In this document: in pieces, positions 32,409 through 42,541 of the stretch | How positions within the stretch are numbered: position 1 is the first letter of the stretch | Layout: each line of letters begins with the position of its first letter | Source: Streptomyces misionensis | GTDB lineage: Bacteria; Actinomycetota; Actinomycetes; Streptomycetales; Streptomycetaceae | NCBI RefSeq assembly: GCF_900104815.1 | Contig: NZ_FNTD01000004.1 | Span: forward strand, 6,571,001-6,635,000 | Length of the DNA: 64,000 nt | Direction of reading: 5' to 3' | Notes under the pieces: model-generated | Databases searched by the model: none | Told to the model about the DNA's origin: nothing | The model's input: the letters and a program-made list of their open reading frames with translations, nothing else | Program-made: the position numbers and the translations under genes

Positions 32409-33410
32409 ATGCCCCGACCCATCGCGCGCGTCCTCACCCTGCTGGAGCTGCTGCAGTCCGGCGGTCTGCGGACCGTCGCCGAACTCGCCGGCCGGCTCGA
32501 CGTCGACGAGCGCACGGTGCGCCGGTACGTCGATCACCTCGTCGACTTGGACATCCCCGTCGAGTCGGTGCGCGGCCGGTACGGCGGCTACCGGCTGGCC
32601 CCCGGCCACCGCATGCCCCCGCTGATGCTGAGCGACGACGAGGCGCTCGCCGTACTGCTCGGCCTGGTCGCCGGCCGGCGGTCCGGTCTGACGCCCGCCG
32701 GCGCCGCCGCGAGCGAGACGGCGACGGCCAAGATCAGACGGGTGCTGCCCGAACGGCTGCGCCACCGGCTCGACGCCGTGCTCGGCTCCCTCGCCTTCAC
32801 CGAAAAGCCCGGCGCCCCGGCGGCCCCGGAGAGCGCCGTCCTGCTCCCGCTCGCCGACGCCGTGCAGCATCGCCGGCCGGTCTCGATCCGGTACGTCGCC
32901 GCGGACGGCCGGCGCAGCGAGCGCACGCTGCACCCCTACGGGCTCGTCGCCCACGCGGGCCGGTGGTACGTGACCGGCGAGGACCGCACGGCGGGGGAGG
33001 ACCGCATGTTCCGGCTCGACCGGATGCTGGGCGTGCGCACCCTGCCCGGCTCGTTCGAGCCGCCGGCCGGCCTGGACCCCGCGCGGCGGGTCCTGCGGGG
33101 CCTCGCCACGGCTCCGTACCGGCACGAGGTGACGGTGCGGGTCCAGGGGGCGGCCGAGGACATCCGGACCCGGCTGCCCGCCGGTGTCGCGATCGTGGCG
33201 GAGCTGCCGCCGGAGGGCGGCGACGGCACGGAGCCCGAGCCCTGGTCGCGCGTCGACATGCGGGTGGAGCGGCTCGACTGGCTGCCCGCCGTGCTCGCCT
33301 CGCTCGACCGCCCGTTCGTCATCGAGCGCCCGGACGAACTCCGCACCCTGGTGGCCGACTTCGCCGCGCGCCTCGCGGACTGCGCCCGCCGCGGACCGCA
33401 CGAAGCGTGA
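32409..33410 (+). CDS. YafY-type HTH/WYL-domain regulator
   Basis: This 333-residue regulator has an N-terminal winged helix (PIARVLTLLELLQSGGLRTV, then AELAGRLDVDERTVRRYVDH) and GRYGGYRL. A WYL ligand-sensing domain from about residue 145 includes RTLHPYGLVAHAGRWYVTG and MFRLDRM. A C-terminal WCX-like extension ends the protein. ATG at 32409 coincides with the conserved start; the longer frame upstream runs through the palindrome. WYL domains are thought to bind nucleic acids or small nucleotides. It is divergent from the VOC gene and likely represses that gene and itself. Confidence 0.92.
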   Translation: MPRPIARVLTLLELLQSGGLRTVAELAGRLDVDERTVRRYVDHLVDLDIPVESVRGRYGGYRLAPGHRMPPLMLSDDEALAVLLGLVAGRRSGLTPAGAAASETATAKIRRVLPERLRHRLDAVLGSLAFTEKPGAPAAPESAVLLPLADAVQHRRPVSIRYVAADGRRSERTLHPYGLVAHAGRWYVTGEDRTAGEDRMFRLDRMLGVRTLPGSFEPPAGLDPARRVLRGLATAPYRHEVTVRVQGAAEDIRTRLPAGVAIVAELPPEGGDGTEPEPWSRVDMRVERLDWLPAVLASLDRPFVIERPDELRTLVADFAARLADCARRGPHEA

Positions 33411-33543
33411 GGGGCGACCGCGGCCACCTGCCGTGGGCCCGCACCAACTAATTCGCGCCAGAGTATTGACCTCTCATTCATTCACTCTCATCCTGCATAG
33501 ACATATGCAGATCGGTGAGGGAACCGTGGAAGAGGGCATACGT

Positions 33544-34962
33544 ATGACAAGTGTGGTCGAACAACGCTCGATCGATGTGGTTCCCGACGCCGAACGGCAC
33601 GGCAGCGCCTTCAGCCAGTTCACCCTCTGGCTGGGTGCCAATCTCCAGATCACCGCGGTCGTGACCGGGGCACTCGCCGTCGTCTTCGGCGGCGGCGCCT
33701 TCTGGTCGATCATCGGCCTGCTGCTCGGCAACCTGCTCGGCGGCGCCGTCATGGCCCTGCACTCGGCGCAGGGACCCCGCCTCGGCCTGCCGCAGATGAT
33801 CTCCAGCCGGGCCCAGTTCGGCGTCCGGGGCGCCGTCGTCCCGCTGCTGCTGGTCATCGTCATGTACGTCGGCTTCTTCGCCAGCGGCAGCGTGCTGGCC
33901 GGCGAGGCCGTCGGCCGGCTCACCCACCTCGGCGACACCACCGGCATCGTGATCTTCGCCCTGGTCACCGCGGTCACCACGATCGTTGGCTACCGGCTCA
34001 TCCACACCCTGGGCCGGGTCGCCAGCATCGTGTGCGCGCTCGCCTTCGTCTACCTCGGCATCCGCCTGCTGGGGCGCGCCGACCTGACCGGCCTGCTGGC
34101 CGACCGCTCCTTCCACCTGCCGCTGTTCCTGCTCGCCGTCTCGCTCTCCGCCTCCTGGCAGCTGGCCTTCGGGCCGTACGTCGCCGACTACTCGCGCTAC
34201 CTGCCCCGCGCCACCTCCGCCCGCGCCACCTTCTGGTGGACCCTCGGCGGCACCGCGCTCGGCTCCCAGTGGTCCATGACCTTCGGCGCCCTCGTGGCGG
34301 CCACCGCGGGCAGCGCCTTCGTGGACAACCAGGTCGGCTACGTCGTCGGGCTGGGCGGCGCCGGCCTGATGGCCTCGTTCCTGTACTTCGTCATCGCCCT
34401 CGGCAAGCTGACGGTCAATGTGCTCAACACCTACGGCGGCTTCATGTCGTTGGTGACCGGGATCGGCGGCTTCCGCACCCAGCGCACGATCTCCCCGCGG
34501 GTGCGCGCCGCCTACATCGCCGGGATCATGATCGCGGGCACCGTGATCGCCCTCCTGGGCAAGGACAGCTTCCTGAACTCCTTCAAGGACTTCCTGCTCT
34601 TCCTGCTCACGGCCTTCACCCCCTGGTCGGCGATCAACCTGGTGGACTACTACCTGATCGCCAAGGAGCGCTACGACCTGCCCGCGCTGAGCGACCCGCA
34701 CGGCCGCTACGGCGCCTGGCGCGTCCGCGCCCTCGTCGTCTACGGCGTCGGCCTCCTGGTCCAACTCCCCTTCCTGGCCACGAGCTTCTACACCGGCCCG
34801 CTGGTGAAGCACCTCGGCGGCACGGACATCTCCTGGATCGTCGGCCTGGCGGTCCCGGCCCTCCTCTACTGGCTCGCGGCCCACCGGGACACGGCTCACG
34901 TCCCGGACCGCATGATCCTCACCGCCGAGCCGGGGACGAAGGCGCAGACCCCCGTCTCCTGA
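33544..34962 (+). CDS. NCS1-family nucleobase/cytosine-type permease
   Basis: This 472-residue integral membrane protein with 12 predicted helices is in the NCS1 family (CodB/PurR-type). Features are LWLGANLQITAVVTGAL, LGLPQMISSRAQFGVRGA, FGPYVADYSRYLP and FTPWSAINLVDYYLIAK. Family members carry purines, cytosine, allantoin, hydantoins or thiamin-like compounds; the substrate here is not deducible. ATG at 33544 has GAGGG upstream; an ATG at 33505 is less likely. Its 3' end overlaps the convergent PLP-enzyme gene by 44 bases, so the two C-termini are encoded on opposite strands of the same DNA. Confidence 0.92.
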   Translation: MTSVVEQRSIDVVPDAERHGSAFSQFTLWLGANLQITAVVTGALAVVFGGGAFWSIIGLLLGNLLGGAVMALHSAQGPRLGLPQMISSRAQFGVRGAVVPLLLVIVMYVGFFASGSVLAGEAVGRLTHLGDTTGIVIFALVTAVTTIVGYRLIHTLGRVASIVCALAFVYLGIRLLGRADLTGLLADRSFHLPLFLLAVSLSASWQLAFGPYVADYSRYLPRATSARATFWWTLGGTALGSQWSMTFGALVAATAGSAFVDNQVGYVVGLGGAGLMASFLYFVIALGKLTVNVLNTYGGFMSLVTGIGGFRTQRTISPRVRAAYIAGIMIAGTVIALLGKDSFLNSFKDFLLFLLTAFTPWSAINLVDYYLIAKERYDLPALSDPHGRYGAWRVRALVVYGVGLLVQLPFLATSFYTGPLVKHLGGTDISWIVGLAVPALLYWLAAHRDTAHVPDRMILTAEPGTKAQTPVS

Positions 34963-36163
34963 TACCGGCCCGCCCCCGCAGCAGCACCTCGAAGCCCGCC
35001 CTCAGGTCCTGCTTCAGATCGGCCAGGGCCTCGAAGCCGACGTGCACCCGGATCAGCGGGCCCCGGCCCGCCCAGGTGCCGGGCAGCCGGTGGGAGACGG
35101 GGTCGGCGGGCACGATCAGGCTCTCGTAGCCGCCGTAGCTGTGGCCGAGGCCGAACAGGCGCAGCCGGTCCAGCATCGCGTCGATGTCCGGTTTGCCGAA
35201 GTCCGGGTCCAGCTCCACCCCGAACAGGCCCGCCGCACCGGTGAAGTCCCGGCGCCACAGATCGTGACCGGGGTCCCCGGGCAGCCCCGGGTGCAGGACC
35301 GCCGCCACGCCCTCCTGCCCGGCGAGCCAGCGCGCCAGTTCCAGGCCCTGTTCCTGGTGGCGGGCCAGGCGCACGTCGAGGGTGCGCAGCCCGCGCAGGC
35401 CCAGATAGGCGTCGTCGGCCCCCGCGCACTGGCCGAGCCGCATCGCCGCGCCCCGGACGAGCGGGTAACTCTCCTCGGTGCACACGACCGCGCCGAGGAT
35501 GCTGTCCGCGTGCCCCGTCAGGTACTTGGTCGCTGAGTGCACCGCCGCGTCCACGCCCGCGCCCAGGACCAGCGGGCGGTGGAACGCCGGTGTGGCCCAG
35601 GTGTTGTCGGCGATCGTGGCCACCCCGTGCGCCCGGCAGACGGCGGTGATCGCCGGGACGTCCTGCACCTCGAAGGTGGTGGAGCCCGGGGACTCGAAGT
35701 ACAGCAGCCGCGTCCGCGGGCGGATCAGCCGGGCGACGGCCGCGCCGTCCGCGGTCGGTTCGTAGTACTCGGTCTCCACACCCAGCGCGGCGAGCGAGTC
35801 GCAGAACCTCCGGGTCGGCAGGTACACCGAGTCGCTGACCAGGATGTGGTCGCCGGCCTGGACGTACGCGAGGATCGTCGTGGTGATCGCGGAGAGGCCG
35901 GAGCAGGTCACCACCGCGGCGTGCCCGCCCTCCAGTTCGGTCAGCGCCTCCTCGAAGGCCCGGCTGGTGGGCGTGCCGAACCGGCCGTAGACCGGGCCGC
36001 CCCGTTTGAGCGGGTCGGCCTGGGAGGCGTCCATCTCGGCCACGTCCCGGTAGAGGACCGTGGAGGCGTGGTGCACGGGCGGGTTGACGTAGCCGCCCTG
36101 CCGGCGCGGGTCCGAACCGGCGTGCACGTACCGAGTCTGCGGCGCGTCGACGGGCTCGTTCAC
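34919..36163 (-). CDS. PLP-dependent Cys/Met metabolism enzyme (cystathionine gamma-synthase/lyase family)
   Basis: This 414-residue fold type I PLP enzyme is of the Cys/Met metabolism family. It has the phosphate-binding VYGRFGTPTS, CSGLSAITTTILAY, DNTWATP and the PLP lysine K213 in SATKYLTGHAD, plus LRGLRTLDVRLARH. The motif set fits MetC/CGS-like enzymes that make or break C-S bonds; which reaction cannot be chosen by eye. GTG at 36163 is in a GTGA overlap with the upstream MFS gene, so it is the last gene of the six-gene radical SAM/ATP-grasp operon. The linked sulfurtransferase supports a sulfur-handling role in that pathway. Confidence 0.88.
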   Translation of the reverse strand: MNEPVDAPQTRYVHAGSDPRRQGGYVNPPVHHASTVLYRDVAEMDASQADPLKRGGPVYGRFGTPTSRAFEEALTELEGGHAAVVTCSGLSAITTTILAYVQAGDHILVSDSVYLPTRRFCDSLAALGVETEYYEPTADGAAVARLIRPRTRLLYFESPGSTTFEVQDVPAITAVCRAHGVATIADNTWATPAFHRPLVLGAGVDAAVHSATKYLTGHADSILGAVVCTEESYPLVRGAAMRLGQCAGADDAYLGLRGLRTLDVRLARHQEQGLELARWLAGQEGVAAVLHPGLPGDPGHDLWRRDFTGAAGLFGVELDPDFGKPDIDAMLDRLRLFGLGHSYGGYESLIVPADPVSHRLPGTWAGRGPLIRVHVGFEALADLKQDLRAGFEVLLRGRAGIRRRGSAPSSPARR

Positions 36164-37422
36164 CGGCCCACCGCCGGTTCGGGCAGCGGCGGTTCGGCGA
36201 CCGTCGGCCGCCGGTCGCGGCCCAGCGCCAGGGCGAGCAGCGCCGCGATCGCGCACTGCGCCGCCACCACCAGCCAGAACGCGCCCAGGTGACCGCCGGA
36301 CTTGTAGTGGGCGAAGACGAAACCGCCGACGACACCGGCCAGGAGCCCGCCGACGCCGCCCGTGAGCCGCTGCACGCCGAAGGCGAACGCCGCGCTGCGG
36401 GGCAGGAGTTCGACCAGCTCCAGGTCACAGCGCAGGAAGAGGAAGATCTCGCCCATGGTGAACAGCGCGGTGCCGGCCAGCAGGGCCGGGGTGCCGCCGA
36501 GCGCCATGACCGCCATGCCGGCCGCCATCACCGCGAACGAACCGGCCATCAGCAGCCGGTAGTCGGCCCGCGCGATGCGGTCGGCCAGCACCGGCTGGAG
36601 CACCACCACCATGGCGCAGTTGAGCAGCATCACCCAGCCCAGCGCCTTGATGTCGGACACCCCGGCCGCGTACAGGCCGATGAAGCTCTGGAAGAAGAAG
36701 TACAGGTAGTAGGCGAGCGCGGTGAACAGCACCGGGCGCGACGCCCCGCGCAGCGCCGCCCACTTCCCGGCGGACCCCTCCGCCCCGGCCGTCCCCGGCG
36801 TCGCGGCGGGCCGGCGCTCGACCGGTTTCAGGGAGACCTGGTGGGCCACGGTGATCAGCGCGAAGAGCCCGGCCAGACCGATGAGCAGCGCCATCGGGTC
36901 GGCGTCGACCAGCAGCGCGGCCAGCAACGGACCGAGGCCCATGCCGGCGTTGAGCGCGGCGCTGCTCACCCCGAGGAACAGCGGGCGCAGTTCGTCGGAG
37001 ACGCTGGTGACGATGTACGCCTTGTTCGCCGGGAGGTACAGCGCCGGACCGCCGGCCACGAGGACCACGGCCGGGTACGCCACCCAGGGCACCTTGACGG
37101 CCACCCCGAGCAGCACCAGTCCGGCCGTGCGCAGGGTCAGCGCGCACACCATGGTCCGCTTGAGCCCGAGCCGGTCCACGACCGCGCCGCCCAGGATGCT
37201 GCCGCCGAACTGGATGAAGGTGGCCACCGCCACCAGCACCCCGGCCACCCGGACGTCCAGGTGGACGGCCTCGACCATGAGCACCCCGATGAACGGGGTG
37301 ACCATGTAGCTGCCCAGCGCGACGACGAACGACAGGACGATCAGGGCCTTGAGCGCGGTCGGCAGCGCGGTGAACGTCCGGTACTTCGCGGCGAGTCCGC
37401 CGCTGACGCGCCCCTCGCTCAC
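36160..37422 (-). CDS. MFS transporter of the radical SAM/ATP-grasp operon
   Basis: This 420-residue protein has about 12 transmembrane segments and MFS features: GGAVVDRLGLKRTM (loop 2-3 motif), LYLPANKAYIV and LFTMGEIFLFL. It resembles MdtH-like exporters. GTG at 37422 overlaps the sulfurtransferase stop (GTGA), and its stop overlaps the PLP enzyme start in the same way. Tight coupling suggests that it exports the product of the pathway or confers self-resistance. Confidence 0.9.
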   Translation of the reverse strand: MSEGRVSGGLAAKYRTFTALPTALKALIVLSFVVALGSYMVTPFIGVLMVEAVHLDVRVAGVLVAVATFIQFGGSILGGAVVDRLGLKRTMVCALTLRTAGLVLLGVAVKVPWVAYPAVVLVAGGPALYLPANKAYIVTSVSDELRPLFLGVSSAALNAGMGLGPLLAALLVDADPMALLIGLAGLFALITVAHQVSLKPVERRPAATPGTAGAEGSAGKWAALRGASRPVLFTALAYYLYFFFQSFIGLYAAGVSDIKALGWVMLLNCAMVVVLQPVLADRIARADYRLLMAGSFAVMAAGMAVMALGGTPALLAGTALFTMGEIFLFLRCDLELVELLPRSAAFAFGVQRLTGGVGGLLAGVVGGFVFAHYKSGGHLGAFWLVVAAQCAIAALLALALGRDRRPTVAEPPLPEPAVGR

Positions 37423-38291
37423 GGTGAATCGCTCCCACCGGTGGCCACCGGGCGCTGCGAGGGCAGGCCCCACTCGCTCCACGAACCGTCGTAGACGGCG
37501 AGTTCGCGGTAGCCCGCCAGGGTGGCGCCGAGCGCGAGGACGCAGGCGGTGACCCCCGAGCCGCAGCTGAAGTACAGCCGCTCCCGGTCCCCGGCGGCCG
37601 CCTTGAACGCCGTACGCAGCTCCTGCGCCGGACGCATCACGCCGCCGTCGCGCTGGAGTTCGCCGAAGGGCAGGCTGGCCGAGCCGGGCATGTGGCCGCC
37701 GCGCAGGCCCGGGCGGGGCTCGGGGGCGGTGCCCGCGTAGCGTTCGCGGGTGCGTGCGTCGAGCACCGCGGCACGCGGGTCGGCGAGGGCGGCGGCGACG
37801 GTGTCGGCGTCCACGATCAGGCCGGGCCGGGGCCGGGCGGTGAACGTGCCGCGCGGGCCGTCGTACGCGGCGGGCTCGGCCTCGACGGGGTGGCCGGCCG
37901 CGGTCCAGGCGGGCAGCCCGCCGTCCAGCACGGCGACCCGGTCGAAGCCCATGGCGCGCAGCATCCACCAGGCGCGGGCGCTGGAGTAGATGCCCTGGGC
38001 GTCGTAGACGACGACCGTGTCGGTGTCGTGCAGCCCGAGCGTGCGCAGTGCCTCGGTGAACTCGGCTGCGCCGGGCATGGTGTGCGGCACCGGGCTGGTG
38101 TGGTCGGACAGGTCCCCGTCGAGGTCGAAGGGGCGGGCCCCGGGGATGCGCGCGGCGGCGCCCCGGCGGGCGCCGACGGAGGCGTCGAAGAGGACCAGGC
38201 CCTCCCCGAGCCGCCCGGCGACCCACTCGGCGTCCACGAGCGGTCCGGCCGGCTCGACGGTGGTGTGCTCAGGGCGAGTTGTGGCGCTCAC
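37419..38291 (-). CDS. Two-domain sulfurtransferase (rhodanese/3-mercaptopyruvate type)
   Basis: This 290-residue protein has two rhodanese domains. The N-terminal inactive domain carries DTVVVYDAQGIYSSARAWW, and the catalytic domain has Cys243 in CGSGVTA. The loop CGSGVTA is typical of 3-mercaptopyruvate sulfurtransferases, whereas thiosulfate rhodaneses have CRxG(K/R). It would carry a persulfide sulfur on Cys243 and pass it to an acceptor. GTG at 38291 overlaps the stop of the upstream ATP-grasp gene (GTGA). Inside an operon with ATP-grasp ligases and a radical SAM enzyme, it is a plausible sulfur donor for biosynthesis rather than for detoxification. Confidence 0.92.
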   Translation of the reverse strand: MSATTRPEHTTVEPAGPLVDAEWVAGRLGEGLVLFDASVGARRGAAARIPGARPFDLDGDLSDHTSPVPHTMPGAAEFTEALRTLGLHDTDTVVVYDAQGIYSSARAWWMLRAMGFDRVAVLDGGLPAWTAAGHPVEAEPAAYDGPRGTFTARPRPGLIVDADTVAAALADPRAAVLDARTRERYAGTAPEPRPGLRGGHMPGSASLPFGELQRDGGVMRPAQELRTAFKAAAGDRERLYFSCGSGVTACVLALGATLAGYRELAVYDGSWSEWGLPSQRPVATGGSDSP

Positions 38292-39508
38292 GCGGTACCT
38301 CCGCAGGACTCGGCGGGCCGCCACCGGGAGTTGTCGGAGAACCAGCCCGCCACGTGTTCGAGATTGGCAGCCACATCCTCCTCGCTGTCCCCGTCGACCA
38401 CGTAACCGGCCAGGAACAGGCCGGACTTCACCCCGCCGTGGAACTCCTGGCCGACGCTCCCGGTGAGCATCACCTCGCGGACGCACCCGGGCTGCTCGGC
38501 CGTCGCGGTGGGCAGCTGCTCCAGCACCCCGTTCCGCGGCGGGATGCACAGGGCCCCGGCGGGCCGGTACTCCGAGGTGCCCAGCGTCGAGGGCAGACCG
38601 CACTCGGCGTACAGCCACTCCTTGTCCAGGTCGATCCCGAAGGCGTGCCGGACCATCGCGCTGATCATGCCGCCACCGGTGCGGCTGGCGATCTCGCAGA
38701 AGAGCAGCCGGTCGTCCGGCGTGATCCAGAACTCGGCGTGGAAGGCGGTCTGGGGCGGCGTCGGCAGCTCGGCCAGCACCGCCCGTGCCGCCTTGACCAG
38801 CCGGTCGTACAGCGGGTCCTCCCGGGTGAGCGGCAGGTTGGCCACCCAGTCGTTGTTCCGGAAGGACAGGCAGTCGTTGAGGTAGCGGAAGGGGTGGACG
38901 AAGACGACCTCCCCGCCGGCCACCAGCCCGTCCACGTGGTACATCTGCCCCGGTACGAACACCTCGATCTCGCTGGTCCCCCGCCAGGGGCTCGCCAGGT
39001 AGGCGTCGAGTTCCGCCTCGTCGCGGATGATCGCCGCGCCCAGCGAGCCCGACTCGGACACCGGCTTGATCACGACCGGGTAGCCGTGCTCGGCGACGAA
39101 GTCGAGGGCGGTGTAGGCCGAGTCGAGCCGGCGGTAGGCCGGCACGTCGACGGGGCCGCCCGCGAGGTGGTCCTTCATCACCACCTTGTCGCGGAAGGCC
39201 AGCGCGCTCGCGGTGTGCTGGCCCGGCAGGCCGAGCAGCGCCCGCAGCTGGGCCGCGCGCACGACGTCGGCCTCGGCGCGGGCGAAGACCGCCTCGACCG
39301 CGAACTCGCGGGCCAGCCGCAGCGCGGTCTTCTCGACCAGCTGGTTGGTGTCGTACGCGTCGAAGGCGTGTACGTGCGGGAGGTGGGAGTAGCCCTGCGC
39401 GTACTCCCGCGCGGTCACGATGACCGGGACGATCCCCGAGCCGGCCAGCCACTGGTCGTACGGGGTCTTGGCGTAGGGCGTCTTGGCGAAGACGAGGATG
39501 TGACGCAT
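38288..39508 (-). CDS. ATP-grasp ligase (second of operon)
   Basis: This 406-residue ATP-grasp enzyme has an N-terminal Rossmann-like domain (MRHILVFAKTPYAKTPYDQW), a central ATP-binding region (HGYPVVIKPVSESGSLGAAI) and a metal-binding C-terminal part (AEFWITPDDRLLFCEIASRTGGG). The family joins carboxylates to amines through acyl phosphates; amino acid and dipeptide ligases of natural product clusters have this layout. No partner carrier protein is present. It starts 20 bases after the radical SAM gene and overlaps the sulfurtransferase start by 4 bases. The N-terminal tandem repeat AKTPY/AKTPY is notable. Confidence 0.87.
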   Translation of the reverse strand: MRHILVFAKTPYAKTPYDQWLAGSGIVPVIVTAREYAQGYSHLPHVHAFDAYDTNQLVEKTALRLAREFAVEAVFARAEADVVRAAQLRALLGLPGQHTASALAFRDKVVMKDHLAGGPVDVPAYRRLDSAYTALDFVAEHGYPVVIKPVSESGSLGAAIIRDEAELDAYLASPWRGTSEIEVFVPGQMYHVDGLVAGGEVVFVHPFRYLNDCLSFRNNDWVANLPLTREDPLYDRLVKAARAVLAELPTPPQTAFHAEFWITPDDRLLFCEIASRTGGGMISAMVRHAFGIDLDKEWLYAECGLPSTLGTSEYRPAGALCIPPRNGVLEQLPTATAEQPGCVREVMLTGSVGQEFHGGVKSGLFLAGYVVDGDSEEDVAANLEHVAGWFSDNSRWRPAESCGGTA

Positions 39509-39528
39509 GGCGGGGTCTTTCTCCCGGT

Positions 39529-40770
39529 TCAGGACGCGGAGTCGGTGAGCAGTGGCAGCCGGCGCCGCTCCGGGACCCGGGAGATCAGGCCGAGTTCCTC
39601 GGACAGCTCGGTGGCGAAGCAGCCGTCCTTGTACGTGCCGGCGAGCCGCTTGGCGGTGAACGCCTCGATCTCCTCGTGGTCGAACTCCACGTCGTACGTG
39701 GTGGCGCCGCTGGTGACGGTGCGGGTCAGGATGCCGAGGTGCGGCTCGAAGGTGTTGACGCAGCCGACGATGTCGCCGATCTTCTCGCGGCGGCCCTCGG
39801 GTCCCTCCGAGAGCACCTCCTCCTGCGCGGGAATGGCGGCGAAGAGCTGACGGCCGGCCCGGCACCAGCCGACGTGGCCGGGGAAGCCCATCGCCTTGAT
39901 GCCGAAGGTGCCGAAGTCCTCGCTGACGCCGAGCTGGAAGCCCAGCGGAATCGTCTCGTGCAGCCACTTGAAGTCGCGGTAGGCCTGCTCGACCTCCTCG
40001 CGGCTCAGGCGCAGTTCGGGGTGGCGGTTGCCGTGGTCGGTGAAGTTGTTGAACCGGACGGTGGCCACGCCCAGCTTGTTGAAGTAGTGGGCGTAGCGCT
40101 CCAGGGAGGTGCGGCCGTGGTTGTGCCGGCCGATGGTGACACCGATGTTGACGCGGAAGGCGTCCTCGGGGGCGATGCCCTCGTTGTACTCGGCGATCCG
40201 GCGCAGCACCTCCTCGGTGTCCGCGCCCGAGAAGACGCCCTTGATGGGGTACGTCTTGTGGTCGGTGACACGGAGGTTCTCGTCGATCACGCCGTGGTAG
40301 GTGATGGAGATGGTGCCGTAGCCGTTCTCCACCGCCCGGTCGAGGAGTTCCCGCCAGTTGTCGGCGAGCAGCGGGCGGCCGCTGGTCCAGGCGTCGCCCT
40401 TCTCCATGGTCGCGGTCGGCGTGTGGTCCAGCTCCTGCCGGAACTCGCGGTTGTTGGCCGGGCCGTAGAGGTTCATGAACTCGCCGTCGTAGGCGAAGCT
40501 GTCCACGTAGCGGGGGTAGACGTGGTAGCCGTGCGACCGCAGGCCCGCCAGGATGCGGGGGCCCTCCTCCATGGCGAAGGACTTGTCGTACACCTTCTCG
40601 TAGTTGACGAACCAGCAGTGCGCGCACTTCTGGCCGCAGGTGTTCTTGCCGACCTTGGTGTCGAGGTCGAGGTAGATGTGGATGTCGTCGGGCTCGATGT
40701 CCTTGAAGGGCGTGGAGAACGGGACATCGCCGTGGAAATCATAGGAAATCGGAGCGTTCTGGACGGACAT
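39529..40770 (-). CDS. Radical SAM enzyme of unassigned subfamily
   Basis: This 413-residue protein has the radical SAM cluster motif CxxxCxxC at Cys45, Cys49 and Cys52 (NTCGQKCAHCWF). The cluster is preceded by a DDIHIYLDLDTKVGKN segment instead of the usual near-N-terminal beta-1. Further motifs include GDAWTSGRPLLADNW, ITYHGV, NIGVTIGRHNHGR and GWCRAGRQ. Extra cysteines (GWC, VGCVN, DGCF) lie in the second half, but I do not see a clear SPASM or B12 domain. There is no obvious precursor peptide gene, so it may act on a free amino acid or a small ligated product. ATG at 40770 has GGGGG upstream. Confidence 0.88.
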   Translation of the reverse strand: MSVQNAPISYDFHGDVPFSTPFKDIEPDDIHIYLDLDTKVGKNTCGQKCAHCWFVNYEKVYDKSFAMEEGPRILAGLRSHGYHVYPRYVDSFAYDGEFMNLYGPANNREFRQELDHTPTATMEKGDAWTSGRPLLADNWRELLDRAVENGYGTISITYHGVIDENLRVTDHKTYPIKGVFSGADTEEVLRRIAEYNEGIAPEDAFRVNIGVTIGRHNHGRTSLERYAHYFNKLGVATVRFNNFTDHGNRHPELRLSREEVEQAYRDFKWLHETIPLGFQLGVSEDFGTFGIKAMGFPGHVGWCRAGRQLFAAIPAQEEVLSEGPEGRREKIGDIVGCVNTFEPHLGILTRTVTSGATTYDVEFDHEEIEAFTAKRLAGTYKDGCFATELSEELGLISRVPERRRLPLLTDSAS

Positions 40771-40877
40771 GTGGCCCCCGATGCGGTGTTTGTCGTCTGG
40801 AAGGAGACAAAGAGACAGGAAGGAAGGACGGAACCGGAGTTGCCGGGAGGGACGGGGCGCCGCGGCGCGGCTCCCCG

Positions 40878-42098
40878 TCAGAGACGAGGCGCGGGCGCGG
40901 TGGTGACCACCGGGCGGGCGGTGAGTTCCGCGACGGCCGCCGCGCAGGCGTCGGTGCCGGCCGCGGTCAGGACGGCCATGCCCAGCCGGTCGGCGGAGGA
41001 GCGCAGCGGGCGCACCTCGTCCCCGGGCCGGACGGTGAGGTCCCAGGCGTGCACCCGGCCCTGCGTGAGGGCGGGCGGCGGTGCGACGGACGTCACGCGC
41101 CCGGGCGGGGCGGTGAGGAAGACGGTGGCGGCCGCGGCGGCCGTGGCGGGGCCCCGCCGGACCCCGGCGCCGATCGCCCAGCCGAGGGCGGCGCGCCGCC
41201 ACTCGACCCCGGTGGTGAGCTGGACCAGGTCCGCGATGCCGTCGCCGCCGAGCCGGGTGTGGGTCTCGATCACGACGACCTTGTCGCCGTCGACCATGAC
41301 CTCGGTGTGGCTCGGGCCGTCGGTGAGCCCGAGGGCGTCGAGCAGTTCGCCGACCGCCCGGGCGACCAGCTCCTGGCGGCGCGGCTCCAGGGAGGGTGGC
41401 GGCATCATATGGCTGACCTCGACGAAGCCGTCCGCGGTGCCCTTCTCGGCGATGCCGATGACGGTGTGCCGCCCGCCCTCGGAGAGGGCCTCGACGCTGA
41501 ACTCCCGCCCCTCGGCGAACTGTTCGAACAGGGTGGCGGCCGTGCGGCGGTCCGCCGGGAGCGCGTCGGCGCTCTCCACCAGGGCGATGGAGGTGCTGCC
41601 CACCCCGTCGACCGGCTTGGCCACGGCCCGGCCGTGGACGGCGAACAGCCGGTCCACCGCCGCCGTGTCGTCGCCGGCGGCGAAGGCCGGGTTCAGATGC
41701 GGCGCCTCGCGCTCCAGGATGCGCCGCATGGCGAGTTTGTCGCGGGTGGCGTGCACGACGGCCGGATCGACTCCGGTGACACCGAGCAGGCGGGCGGCCA
41801 GCGCGGCCGGCTCCAGGCCGAACTCGGTGAGCGAGACGACGGCGGTGGGCCGCAGGGGGCGCAGCACCTCGTCGGTGAAGGTCAGGAAGGCGGGCAGGTC
41901 CCGGAAGTCGGCCGTCAGCACCCGGGTGCCCGGGTCGAGGGCGGGAGCGCCGGGCAGCTGTACGTGGACCGGTTCGCCGGGCAGGGACGCCGCCGCCCTC
42001 GCCACGGTCGGGTTGGCGCCGACGATCACCAGAGTGGAGACGTCGTCCGTGTTCCCCGGACAGTCCTCGTCCGGGCCGTCCGCGTTCACTGCGTCCAC
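40878..42098 (-). CDS. ATP-grasp ligase (first gene of operon)
   Basis: This 406-residue ATP-grasp enzyme has an N-terminal pre-ATP-grasp domain (LVIVGANPTVARAAA), a central ATP-binding region (GRAVAKPVDGVGSTSIA, EFSVEALSEGG) and a metal/phosphate site (EVMVDGDKVVVIETHTRLGG). This pattern resembles BacD-like L-amino acid ligases and argininosuccinate-type natural product ligases. GTG at 42098 is chosen because GGGGGAGG lies four bases upstream; GTG 42089 is possible. It is the first gene of the operon, 107 bases before the radical SAM gene. Two different ligases in one operon suggest two successive amide bonds or two different amines. Confidence 0.87.
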   Translation of the reverse strand: MDAVNADGPDEDCPGNTDDVSTLVIVGANPTVARAAASLPGEPVHVQLPGAPALDPGTRVLTADFRDLPAFLTFTDEVLRPLRPTAVVSLTEFGLEPAALAARLLGVTGVDPAVVHATRDKLAMRRILEREAPHLNPAFAAGDDTAAVDRLFAVHGRAVAKPVDGVGSTSIALVESADALPADRRTAATLFEQFAEGREFSVEALSEGGRHTVIGIAEKGTADGFVEVSHMMPPPSLEPRRQELVARAVGELLDALGLTDGPSHTEVMVDGDKVVVIETHTRLGGDGIADLVQLTTGVEWRRAALGWAIGAGVRRGPATAAAAATVFLTAPPGRVTSVAPPPALTQGRVHAWDLTVRPGDEVRPLRSSADRLGMAVLTAAGTDACAAAVAELTARPVVTTAPAPRL

Positions 42099-42151: not shown

Positions 42152-42181
42152 ACAATCGCAAGCGTGCTCGGAGGATGTCAA
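42152..42181 (-). promoter_or_regulatory. Promoter candidate for the radical SAM/ATP-grasp operon
   Basis: On the minus strand a perfect -35 TTGACA (42181-42176) is followed after 18 bases by GATTGT (42157-42152) as a -10 element. This is about 54 bases before the GTG start at 42098. Confidence 0.5.
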
Positions 42182-42200: not shown

Positions 42201-42541
42201 AATCGCGCCCGACCGCGGGCCTGACCTGGCATCGGCCCGTCTCCACAAGGGACGCTTCACGAGTTGTACGGCCGGTCGAGGCCCCGCGCCGGCCCGCGCG
42301 CGGACGCCCCTCGGCACGTCATTCCGGCCAACTTTCCGGCCACTACGACACACTCCGTTCACAAAACCCCAGCAAGACGTCCGGATCGTCGGCGGATTCC
42401 GGCCAAACGTCGGACCAGAGTGAGGGTGCGGCGGCGATCCGGGGGGAGCGGTCCGTTTCCGGCGAGGTCGGGCCGGACCCGGGACCGCGCCCGGCACGGA
42501 CGGCGGGGCCCTCCCGCACCCCGGGCGCGGGGCGGCAGGCG
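42201..42541. repeat. Long upstream region with three TTCCGGCCA repeats
   Basis: No gene is seen between the operon promoter and the stop of the DUF4157 gene. The 9-mer TTCCGGCCA occurs three times in direct orientation, at 42322-42330, 42334-42342 and 42397-42405. The first two are 12 bases apart, about one helical turn. They may bind a regulator of the operon or be remnants of a repeat. The rest shows nothing recognisable. Confidence 0.45.

Follow-up and report, generated by a model that had tools for sequence, protein, structure and literature searches.

A six-gene operon and its upstream region

We analysed a 64,000-nucleotide stretch of the Streptomyces misionensis genome (contig NZ_FNTD01000004.1, positions 6,571,001 to 6,635,000; hereafter the window). 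The present study concerns a compact operon of six minus-strand genes at window positions 34919..42098, which encodes two ATP-grasp ligase-like proteins (AG1 and AG2), a radical S-adenosylmethionine (SAM) protein, a sulfurtransferase, a major facilitator superfamily (MFS) protein, and a pyridoxal 5'-phosphate (PLP) enzyme. Open reading frame (ORF) reading returned the six genes with the outer coordinates that a first-pass annotation, made from the letters of the window, had given. The order of transcription is AG1, radical SAM, AG2, sulfurtransferase, MFS, and PLP enzyme. As that annotation had also described, the last four genes are coupled by three GTGA overlaps (38288-38291, 37419-37422, and 36160-36163), and AG2 follows the radical SAM gene after 20 bases (39509-39528). 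AG1 and the radical SAM gene are separated by 107 bases. The features are listed below.

42355..42366, minus strand: 12-mer TTTTGTGAACGG, a possible regulator site upstream of the operon, suggested by its conservation
42176..42181, minus strand: TTGACA, candidate -35 element of the operon promoter, invariant in 12/12 aligned upstream regions
40878..42098, minus strand: AG1, ATP-grasp, L-amino-acid-ligase-like, 406 aa, with a LAL_C2 domain and a GTG start (Pfam, solved chains)
39529..40770, minus strand: radical SAM protein, 413 aa, SPASM/Twitch fold (CxxxCxxC motif and predicted fold)
38288..39508, minus strand: AG2, second ATP-grasp L-amino-acid-ligase-like protein, 406 aa (Pfam, solved chains)
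37419..38291, minus strand: two-domain sulfurtransferase, 3-mercaptopyruvate-sulfurtransferase-like, 290 aa (Pfam, NCBIfam, solved chains)
36160..37422, minus strand: MFS protein, putative exporter, 420 aa (Pfam)
34919..36163, minus strand: PLP enzyme of the cystathionine beta-lyase (C-S beta-lyase) family, 414 aa (Pfam, TIGR01324)

A Pfam scan of the six proteins found no carrier or condensation domains of nonribosomal peptide synthetases (NRPSs) or polyketide synthases.

The upstream alignment supports a single predicted promoter region ahead of AG1, as had been proposed. The invariant TTGACA spoke for it, whereas a generic sigma-70 scan called no promoter upstream of the operon, the candidate TTGACA included. 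A second promoter may lie within the spacing between AG1 and the radical SAM gene. The 12-mer TTTTGTGAACGG was present as an exact copy in the window, in seven of the 12 named loci introduced below (L010-L013, L015, L019, and L020), and in L039; allowing up to one mismatch, it occurred once in the 64 kb window, against 0.04 expected. AdpA-type sites were also considered, using what we take to be the AdpA consensus. Two lay upstream of AG1, but the window total was 8 against 7.6 expected, and these candidates were dropped.

Conservation, edges, and distribution of the operon

All six genes were found in the same order in 15 of 17 radical SAM-bearing loci of Streptomycetaceae. This set consists of the window, 12 named Streptomyces loci from a scan of named genomes, and four additional loci (L039, L041, L042, and L043), all complete, the last of which is from another genus of the family. 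The additional loci came from a family-wide search that yielded seven further radical SAM matches besides the own genome, with neighbourhoods cut for five; L040, which seemingly duplicates S. toxytricini L014, and G322 and G799, whose coordinates match L019 and L009, were left out as repeats. Ten of the 12 named loci were complete and in order, counting another S. misionensis locus (L011) whose split MFS gene is an N-filled assembly gap. In S. flaveolus (L009), the sulfurtransferase gene has been lost by an internal deletion, leaving a remnant of the start and last codons (L009:12482-12560) between AG2 and the MFS gene. In S. morookaense (L017), five of the six genes were present, with no AG1 upstream of the radical SAM gene (upstream of 10001). 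The sulfurtransferase start overlapped the AG2 stop in 10 of the 11 named loci having a sulfurtransferase.

The edges of the operon were examined by comparing 1062 flanking ORFs of at least 120 codons from the 17 loci (E <= 1e-20, >40% identity). Flanking families were shared by two loci in 73 cases and by three in seven cases, several of the latter being overlapping frames of one gene; none was shared by four or more. In the flanks of the 12 named loci without the window, no family occurred in three or more loci. The two-locus families derived mostly from two pairs, namely the window with L011 and L014 with L041. Since the gene order is kept while the flanks mostly differ, the six-gene operon is a real unit with real edges, residing in several genome contexts, though not in 17 independent ones. 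The radical SAM gene was rare, being detected in 8/394 sampled genomes of Streptomycetaceae, 2/150 relatives, and 2/396 genomes across the phylum (overlapping samples, each including the own genome). The operon is distributed in patches and has probably moved between species as a single piece.

None of the window neighbours that were tested looks like a pathway gene. On one side lie genes for a glyoxalase-like protein, a WYL regulator, and a cytosine/purine permease, and on the other those for an eCIS-core protein, an ASCH protein, a subtilase-like protein, and importer components. The plus-strand permease ORF (33184-34962) converges with the PLP enzyme gene, their 3' ends overlapping by 44 bases (34919-34962). 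The eCIS-core-domain protein (PF13699, 42542-44413) is encoded just upstream of the operon in the same direction, and related ORFs stand at the same place in L010 and L011.

Properties of the encoded proteins and their relatives

In the radical SAM protein, C45, C49, and C52 of the CxxxCxxC motif, together with C303, C337, and C384, were invariant in 50/50 aligned homologs. Searches of Pfam, NCBIfam, and PDB sequences gave no match for the window protein. It did not match PF04055 even at E 1, while 24 of the 50 homologs did so at E <= 1, with a best value of 3.3e-4. An AlphaFold2 model (pLDDT 91.7, pTM 0.89) had SuiB, anSME, ChlB, a sactisynthase (5why), and SkfB as fold neighbours, a comparison that covers the families present in the fold table. 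On this confident model, the protein is predicted to be a radical SAM enzyme of the SPASM/Twitch fold, in the neighbourhood of enzymes that form thioethers or cyclise peptides. The earlier radical SAM label accordingly holds for the window protein because of its motif and fold, and not of a Pfam profile. A separate group of the same family at about 50% identity (P0105, P0116, and P0120) has CRQxCxHC in place of CGQxCxHC.

Both ATP-grasp proteins were nearest to solved L-amino acid ligases. AG1 exceeded the cut-offs of PF13535 (46.3 bits, cut-off 27) and of LAL_C2 (PF18603; 45.8 bits, cut-off 29.4), and thus has an ATP-grasp and a LAL C-terminal domain; its closest solved chain was the L-amino acid ligase BL00235 (3vot, E 6.8e-15). 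The motif IETHTRLGGD was found in 11 of 12 AG1 proteins, with a T-to-N change in the remaining one. AG2 fell just under the PF13535 cut-off (26.0 bits of 27), rising above it only with its neighbours in frame, exceeded that of CPSase_L_D2 (25.3 bits, cut-off 19.8), and had the L-amino acid ligase 4wd3 as its closest solved chain (E 2.9e-18). Both were far below the equivalog cut-offs for DdaF and BacD: AG2 scored 28.8 of 840 for DdaF and 25.6 of 850 for BacD, and AG1 scored 20.2 of 850 for BacD, with no match to DdaF listed in the NCBIfam search.

The family labels given earlier to the remaining three proteins were borne out by scores above the Pfam cut-offs. The sulfurtransferase scored 84.9 bits for Rhodanese (cut-off 22.2) and 202.6 of 250 bits for the 3-mercaptopyruvate sulfurtransferase equivalog NF008557, i.e., under its cut-off; its best solved chains, 4jgt (E 3.4e-52) and 3olh, are both named 3-mercaptopyruvate sulfurtransferase. 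The loop CGSGVT, conserved in 12/12 operon sulfurtransferases, agrees with CG(S/T)GVT, which we take to be the active-site loop consensus of that enzyme. The MFS protein scored 94.7 bits for MFS_1 (cut-off 33.4), and its best NCBIfam neighbours, MdtH and YdeE, were far below their cut-offs; its direction of transport is presumed to be export.

The PLP enzyme scored 323.8 bits for Cys_Met_Meta_PP (cut-off 27) and 443.6 bits for TIGR01324 (equivalog cut-off 365.9). Residues Y59, R61, Y114, D186, K213, S342, and R372, which presumably correspond to Y56, R58, Y111, D185, K210, S339, and R372 of the Escherichia coli enzyme, were invariant in 13/13 operon proteins. The suggestion that this enzyme makes or breaks C-S bonds can be narrowed, since its family, the C-S beta-lyases, would break rather than make them. 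Among 121 Streptomyces genomes, the own genome included, TIGR01324 was exceeded in three, each time within the operon, with the radical SAM gene at a distance of about 3.4 kb; in some of the genomes, the scoring did not extend to a few of the first-look candidates. No other protein above the TIGR01324 cut-off was found in the window genome, although related Cys/Met-family enzymes occur elsewhere in it. As TIGR01324 is passed only by the operon copies, this distribution argues that the PLP enzyme arrived together with the other operon genes, rather than being a surplus version of an enzyme of its family already resident in the genome. A PatB-type lyase was above the cut-off in one of eight operon-bearing genomes, outside the operon. 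According to reference titles in two papers (PMC3784150 and PMC5025676), Y238 and W340 of the E. coli enzyme have been mutated as specificity or active-site residues. The S. morookaense PLP enzyme is the only one of the 13 that retains W at the position equivalent to W340.

Relatives of the radical SAM protein were also sought outside Streptomyces. Homologs numbered 142 at E <= 1e-3 among 7999 scored candidates, and the 120 matches listed included proteins from Kitasatospora, Corallococcus, Teredinibacter, Serratia plymuthica, Pantoea ananatis, and metagenomes. Beyond the loci that were read, linkage to AG2 was judged indirectly, by equal-sized longest contigs, with 120 listed homologs of each protein. 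By this measure, 39 of the 120 radical SAM homologs seemingly share a contig with a listed AG2 homolog, 28 of them on contigs of at least 10 kb. Sharing was seen for 12/24 listed homologs at 75% identity or more, 22/39 at 60-75%, and 5/31 at 55-60%, and the two genes also seem to lie on one contig in a Corallococcus. As far as this indirect test reaches, the pair holds widely among the matches listed, though not among the remotest radical SAM homologs.

Two enterobacterial plasmids carried related clusters. Providencia plasmid pR33-1 encodes, in a row, a radical SAM protein (51% identity), one ATP-grasp protein nearer to AG1 (28%) than to AG2, an MFS protein, and a PatB-family C-S lyase. The Enterobacter cloacae conjugative plasmid pWP8-W19-CRE-02_1 (L022:10001-12521) has a radical SAM remnant, a sulfurtransferase (43% identity to that of the window), and an MFS protein, with a transposase nearby. 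A close relative (96%) of this sulfurtransferase is listed under Salmonella enterica, and two relatives seemingly lie, as judged by eye, on the same contigs (lengths 5423 and 3833) as radical SAM homologs. The MFS proteins of the two plasmids gave no match to that of the window at E 1e-3. A DNA search of E. coli genomes with the Providencia and Enterobacter stretches gave no match, and no relative was found in viral contigs. The slots that recur are thus those of a single radical SAM family, of one or two amino-acid ligases, of an exporter whose subfamily varies, and of a sulfurtransferase, a C-S beta-lyase from either of two families, or both. Both ligases and the sulfurtransferase co-occur with the radical SAM gene in the 15 complete loci, the linkage for which the first-pass annotation had suggested a search, but the full set is not universal, as L017, L009, and the Providencia cluster show.

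Proposed pathway, alternatives, and significance

The first-pass annotation could not match the operon to a described cluster, and we likewise found none with this gene set in searches of the open-licence PMC literature aimed at it or at its enterobacterial form. Those described systems that come closest have other central enzymes or other partner genes. In sequence, AG1 and AG2 are related to 3vot and 4wd3, and hence to the L-amino-acid ligases and ATP-grasp peptide antibiotic enzymes (4wd3, BL00235, BacD, and the dapdiamide enzyme DdaF), but they are far below the DdaF and BacD equivalog cut-offs, and the partner genes differ. The PLP enzyme resembles MetC (TIGR01324) in its score and retained catalytic residues, but differs from it at the Y238 and W340 equivalents and in passing the model, among the 121 Streptomyces genomes, only within the operon. 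The sactisynthases (SkfB, and 5why/5wgg, which we take to be CteB) are neighbours in fold, but the window protein has no sequence match to them in the databases searched, and no precursor gene was found beside the operon. In ergothioneine synthesis, an oxidative C-S bond formation from cysteine (EgtB) is followed by a PLP C-S lyase (EgtE), with net sulfur transfer (PMC4493562). The same two-step logic is proposed below for the operon with another oxidant: EgtB is a mononuclear non-haem iron enzyme, whereas the operon has a radical SAM protein, plus ligases and an exporter. The 4'-thiothymidine cluster thmA-C and albomycin AbmM offer the case of a small cluster in which a radical SAM enzyme is thought to introduce sulfur (PMC12691670). 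These systems have a nucleoside kinase and, for thmA-C, also a nucleotide triphosphatase, families that none of the six operon proteins matches, and the radical SAM enzymes are compared here by their described roles.

Pantoea clusters were compared because radical SAM homologs occur in Pantoea ananatis and Serratia. The Pantoea PNP-1 cluster (PMC4010436) and the cluster in PMC7744662 have different genes. PNP-2, as described in PMC11350110, comprises six genes and has a predicted ferredoxin reductase, and homologs of it occur in Providencia, Serratia, and Enterobacter; by that description, it may or may not be identical with the enterobacterial version of the operon. A Pantoea agglomerans plasmid with an AG2-like ligase carries a different cluster. 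Its stretch L024:1526-13193 has ThiF, TauD, GNAT, CapA-family, ATP-grasp, PurD-annotated, MFS, and amidase genes, and looks like another small-molecule pathway.

The first-pass annotation had proposed a pathway independent of the ribosome and NRPSs to a modified, possibly sulfur-containing small peptide. Gene content and linkage fit this proposal, whereas the peptide and its sulfur are inferred only. That the ligases and the radical SAM enzyme serve the biosynthesis of an exported small molecule is, in our judgement, probable; that the product contains sulfur is slightly favoured. Taken as a whole, the proposal that this compact operon makes a sulfur-modified small peptide without ribosome or NRPS and then exports it has, in our estimate, an even chance of being right, its substrates, steps, and product being read from the genes. 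The strongest hint on chemistry is that two C-S lyase families occupy the same slot, because both family names share beta-elimination from an S-substituted cysteine. With this slot standing beside a sactisynthase-like radical SAM fold, a thioether formed and then cleaved would be the simplest scheme.

In this scheme, one or both ATP-grasp ligases would join free amino acids, cysteine or a cysteine conjugate being among the substrates. The 5'-deoxyadenosyl radical of the radical SAM enzyme would then take hydrogen from an unactivated carbon, and the enzyme would form a C-S (thioether) bond with a cysteine sulfur held at an auxiliary iron-sulfur cluster. The PLP C-S beta-lyase could cut off the cysteine side as pyruvate and ammonia, leaving a thiol. 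The sulfurtransferase would move sulfane sulfur, either feeding sulfur in or converting the thiol to a persulfide, and the MFS protein would export the product. We regard this exact route as tentative. About as tentative is the wider idea that radical C-H thiolation acts on free amino acids or ligase-made peptides. Here a radical SAM family of which we found no described member would join cysteine sulfur to an unactivated carbon, a C-S lyase, from one family or the other depending on the bacterium, would leave a thiol, and the sulfurtransferase could extend it to a persulfide. Such a thiolation would match the ergothioneine strategy, with a radical SAM enzyme in the oxidant's place.

Several observations weigh against this interpretation. 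The pathway is predicted from genes, and its product, substrates, and activities are all inferred. The radical SAM fold does not choose the reaction: the best Foldseek E-value was for viperin (7.2e-7), the tied top Z group includes SuiB and anSME, which carry out other chemistry, and DesII (13.8) and viperin (13.7) ranked above MoaA. Only three auxiliary cysteines (C303, C337, and C384) were invariant in the 50-homolog alignment, from which a fourth ligand was not identified. In the PLP enzymes, the equivalent of E. coli Y238 is M or I in 13/13 and that of W340 is Y in 12/13; because these positions differ, cystathionine may not be the substrate. The Providencia cluster has no sulfurtransferase, S. 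flaveolus has deleted it, and S. morookaense lacks AG1, while the swap of C-S lyases is known from one Providencia locus. Sharing of contigs with AG2 was 0/26 among listed radical SAM homologs under 55% identity. Finally, the flanks common to the window and L011 and to L014 and L041 mean that not every locus is an independent context, and the gene-distance correlations of 0.87-0.95 (without L011) are also expected from shared species history.

Other explanations were weighed against the same evidence. Since most SPASM/Twitch radical SAM enzymes have ribosomal peptides as their substrates, and several fold neighbours of the window protein belong to pathways of ribosomally synthesized and post-translationally modified peptides (RiPPs), a RiPP cluster with an overlooked small precursor gene was considered. 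We judge this very improbable: no ORF of 18-110 codons within 1.2 kb upstream or downstream was common to more than 3 of 13 loci, a precursor elsewhere not having been searched for; the ORF found in three loci lies antisense to the operon, across the conserved promoter DNA; and the spacing between AG1 and the radical SAM gene, 90-209 bases in the 12 loci having AG1, held no evident common ORF by eye. The product could also be an antimetabolite, as small ATP-grasp peptides often are, here a peptide-delivered, vinylglycine-like or similar inhibitor of PLP C-S lyases and of methionine synthesis, with the PLP enzyme as an insensitive stand-in for the enzyme of the producer itself. Both slot enzymes (the cystathionine beta-lyase family and PatB) could serve methionine synthesis, two active-site positions of the PLP enzyme are altered, Cys/Met-family relatives occur elsewhere in the window genome, and one of eight operon-bearing genomes has a PatB lyase above its cut-off outside the operon. 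This explanation is nevertheless lowered by the lack of a second TIGR01324 protein in the window genome and by the three operon copies being the only ones to pass in the 121 genomes, which leaves it unlikely, though well ahead of the RiPP cluster.

Two further explanations, each somewhat better placed than the antimetabolite but still improbable, concern the radical step itself. In one, the enzyme would dehydrogenate, cross-link, or rearrange a peptide made by the ligases, no new C-S bond being formed, and the lyase would act only on a cysteine-conjugate building block made elsewhere. On this view, it would go unexplained that different bacteria have the same radical SAM family next to a sulfurtransferase or to a C-S lyase from one of two families. 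In the other, which has about the same standing, the auxiliary cluster would give up its sulfur, as in biotin and lipoate synthesis and in AbmM, and the C-S lyase and sulfurtransferase would mobilise cysteine sulfur to rebuild it. The three invariant auxiliary cysteines and the overlap of the sulfurtransferase start with the AG2 stop in 10/11 named loci favour it, as does the statement in PMC12691670 that the cluster of AbmM is the sulfur donor.

In our view, the operon is a variant among the ATP-grasp small-peptide clusters, and there is a real chance of new radical chemistry in it. Its radical SAM family, whose window member escapes the Pfam and NCBIfam models, thereby gains a genetic setting. 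As the operon is short, compact, translationally coupled, and present in several genome contexts, it lends itself to cloning and testing as a single piece, and the deletion in S. flaveolus offers a natural test of whether the sulfurtransferase is needed. If the product does contain sulfur in the way proposed, the operon would provide a new enzymatic route from a C-H bond to a thiol, and would represent a class of exported sulfur peptides that genome mining centred on NRPSs and RiPPs passes over.

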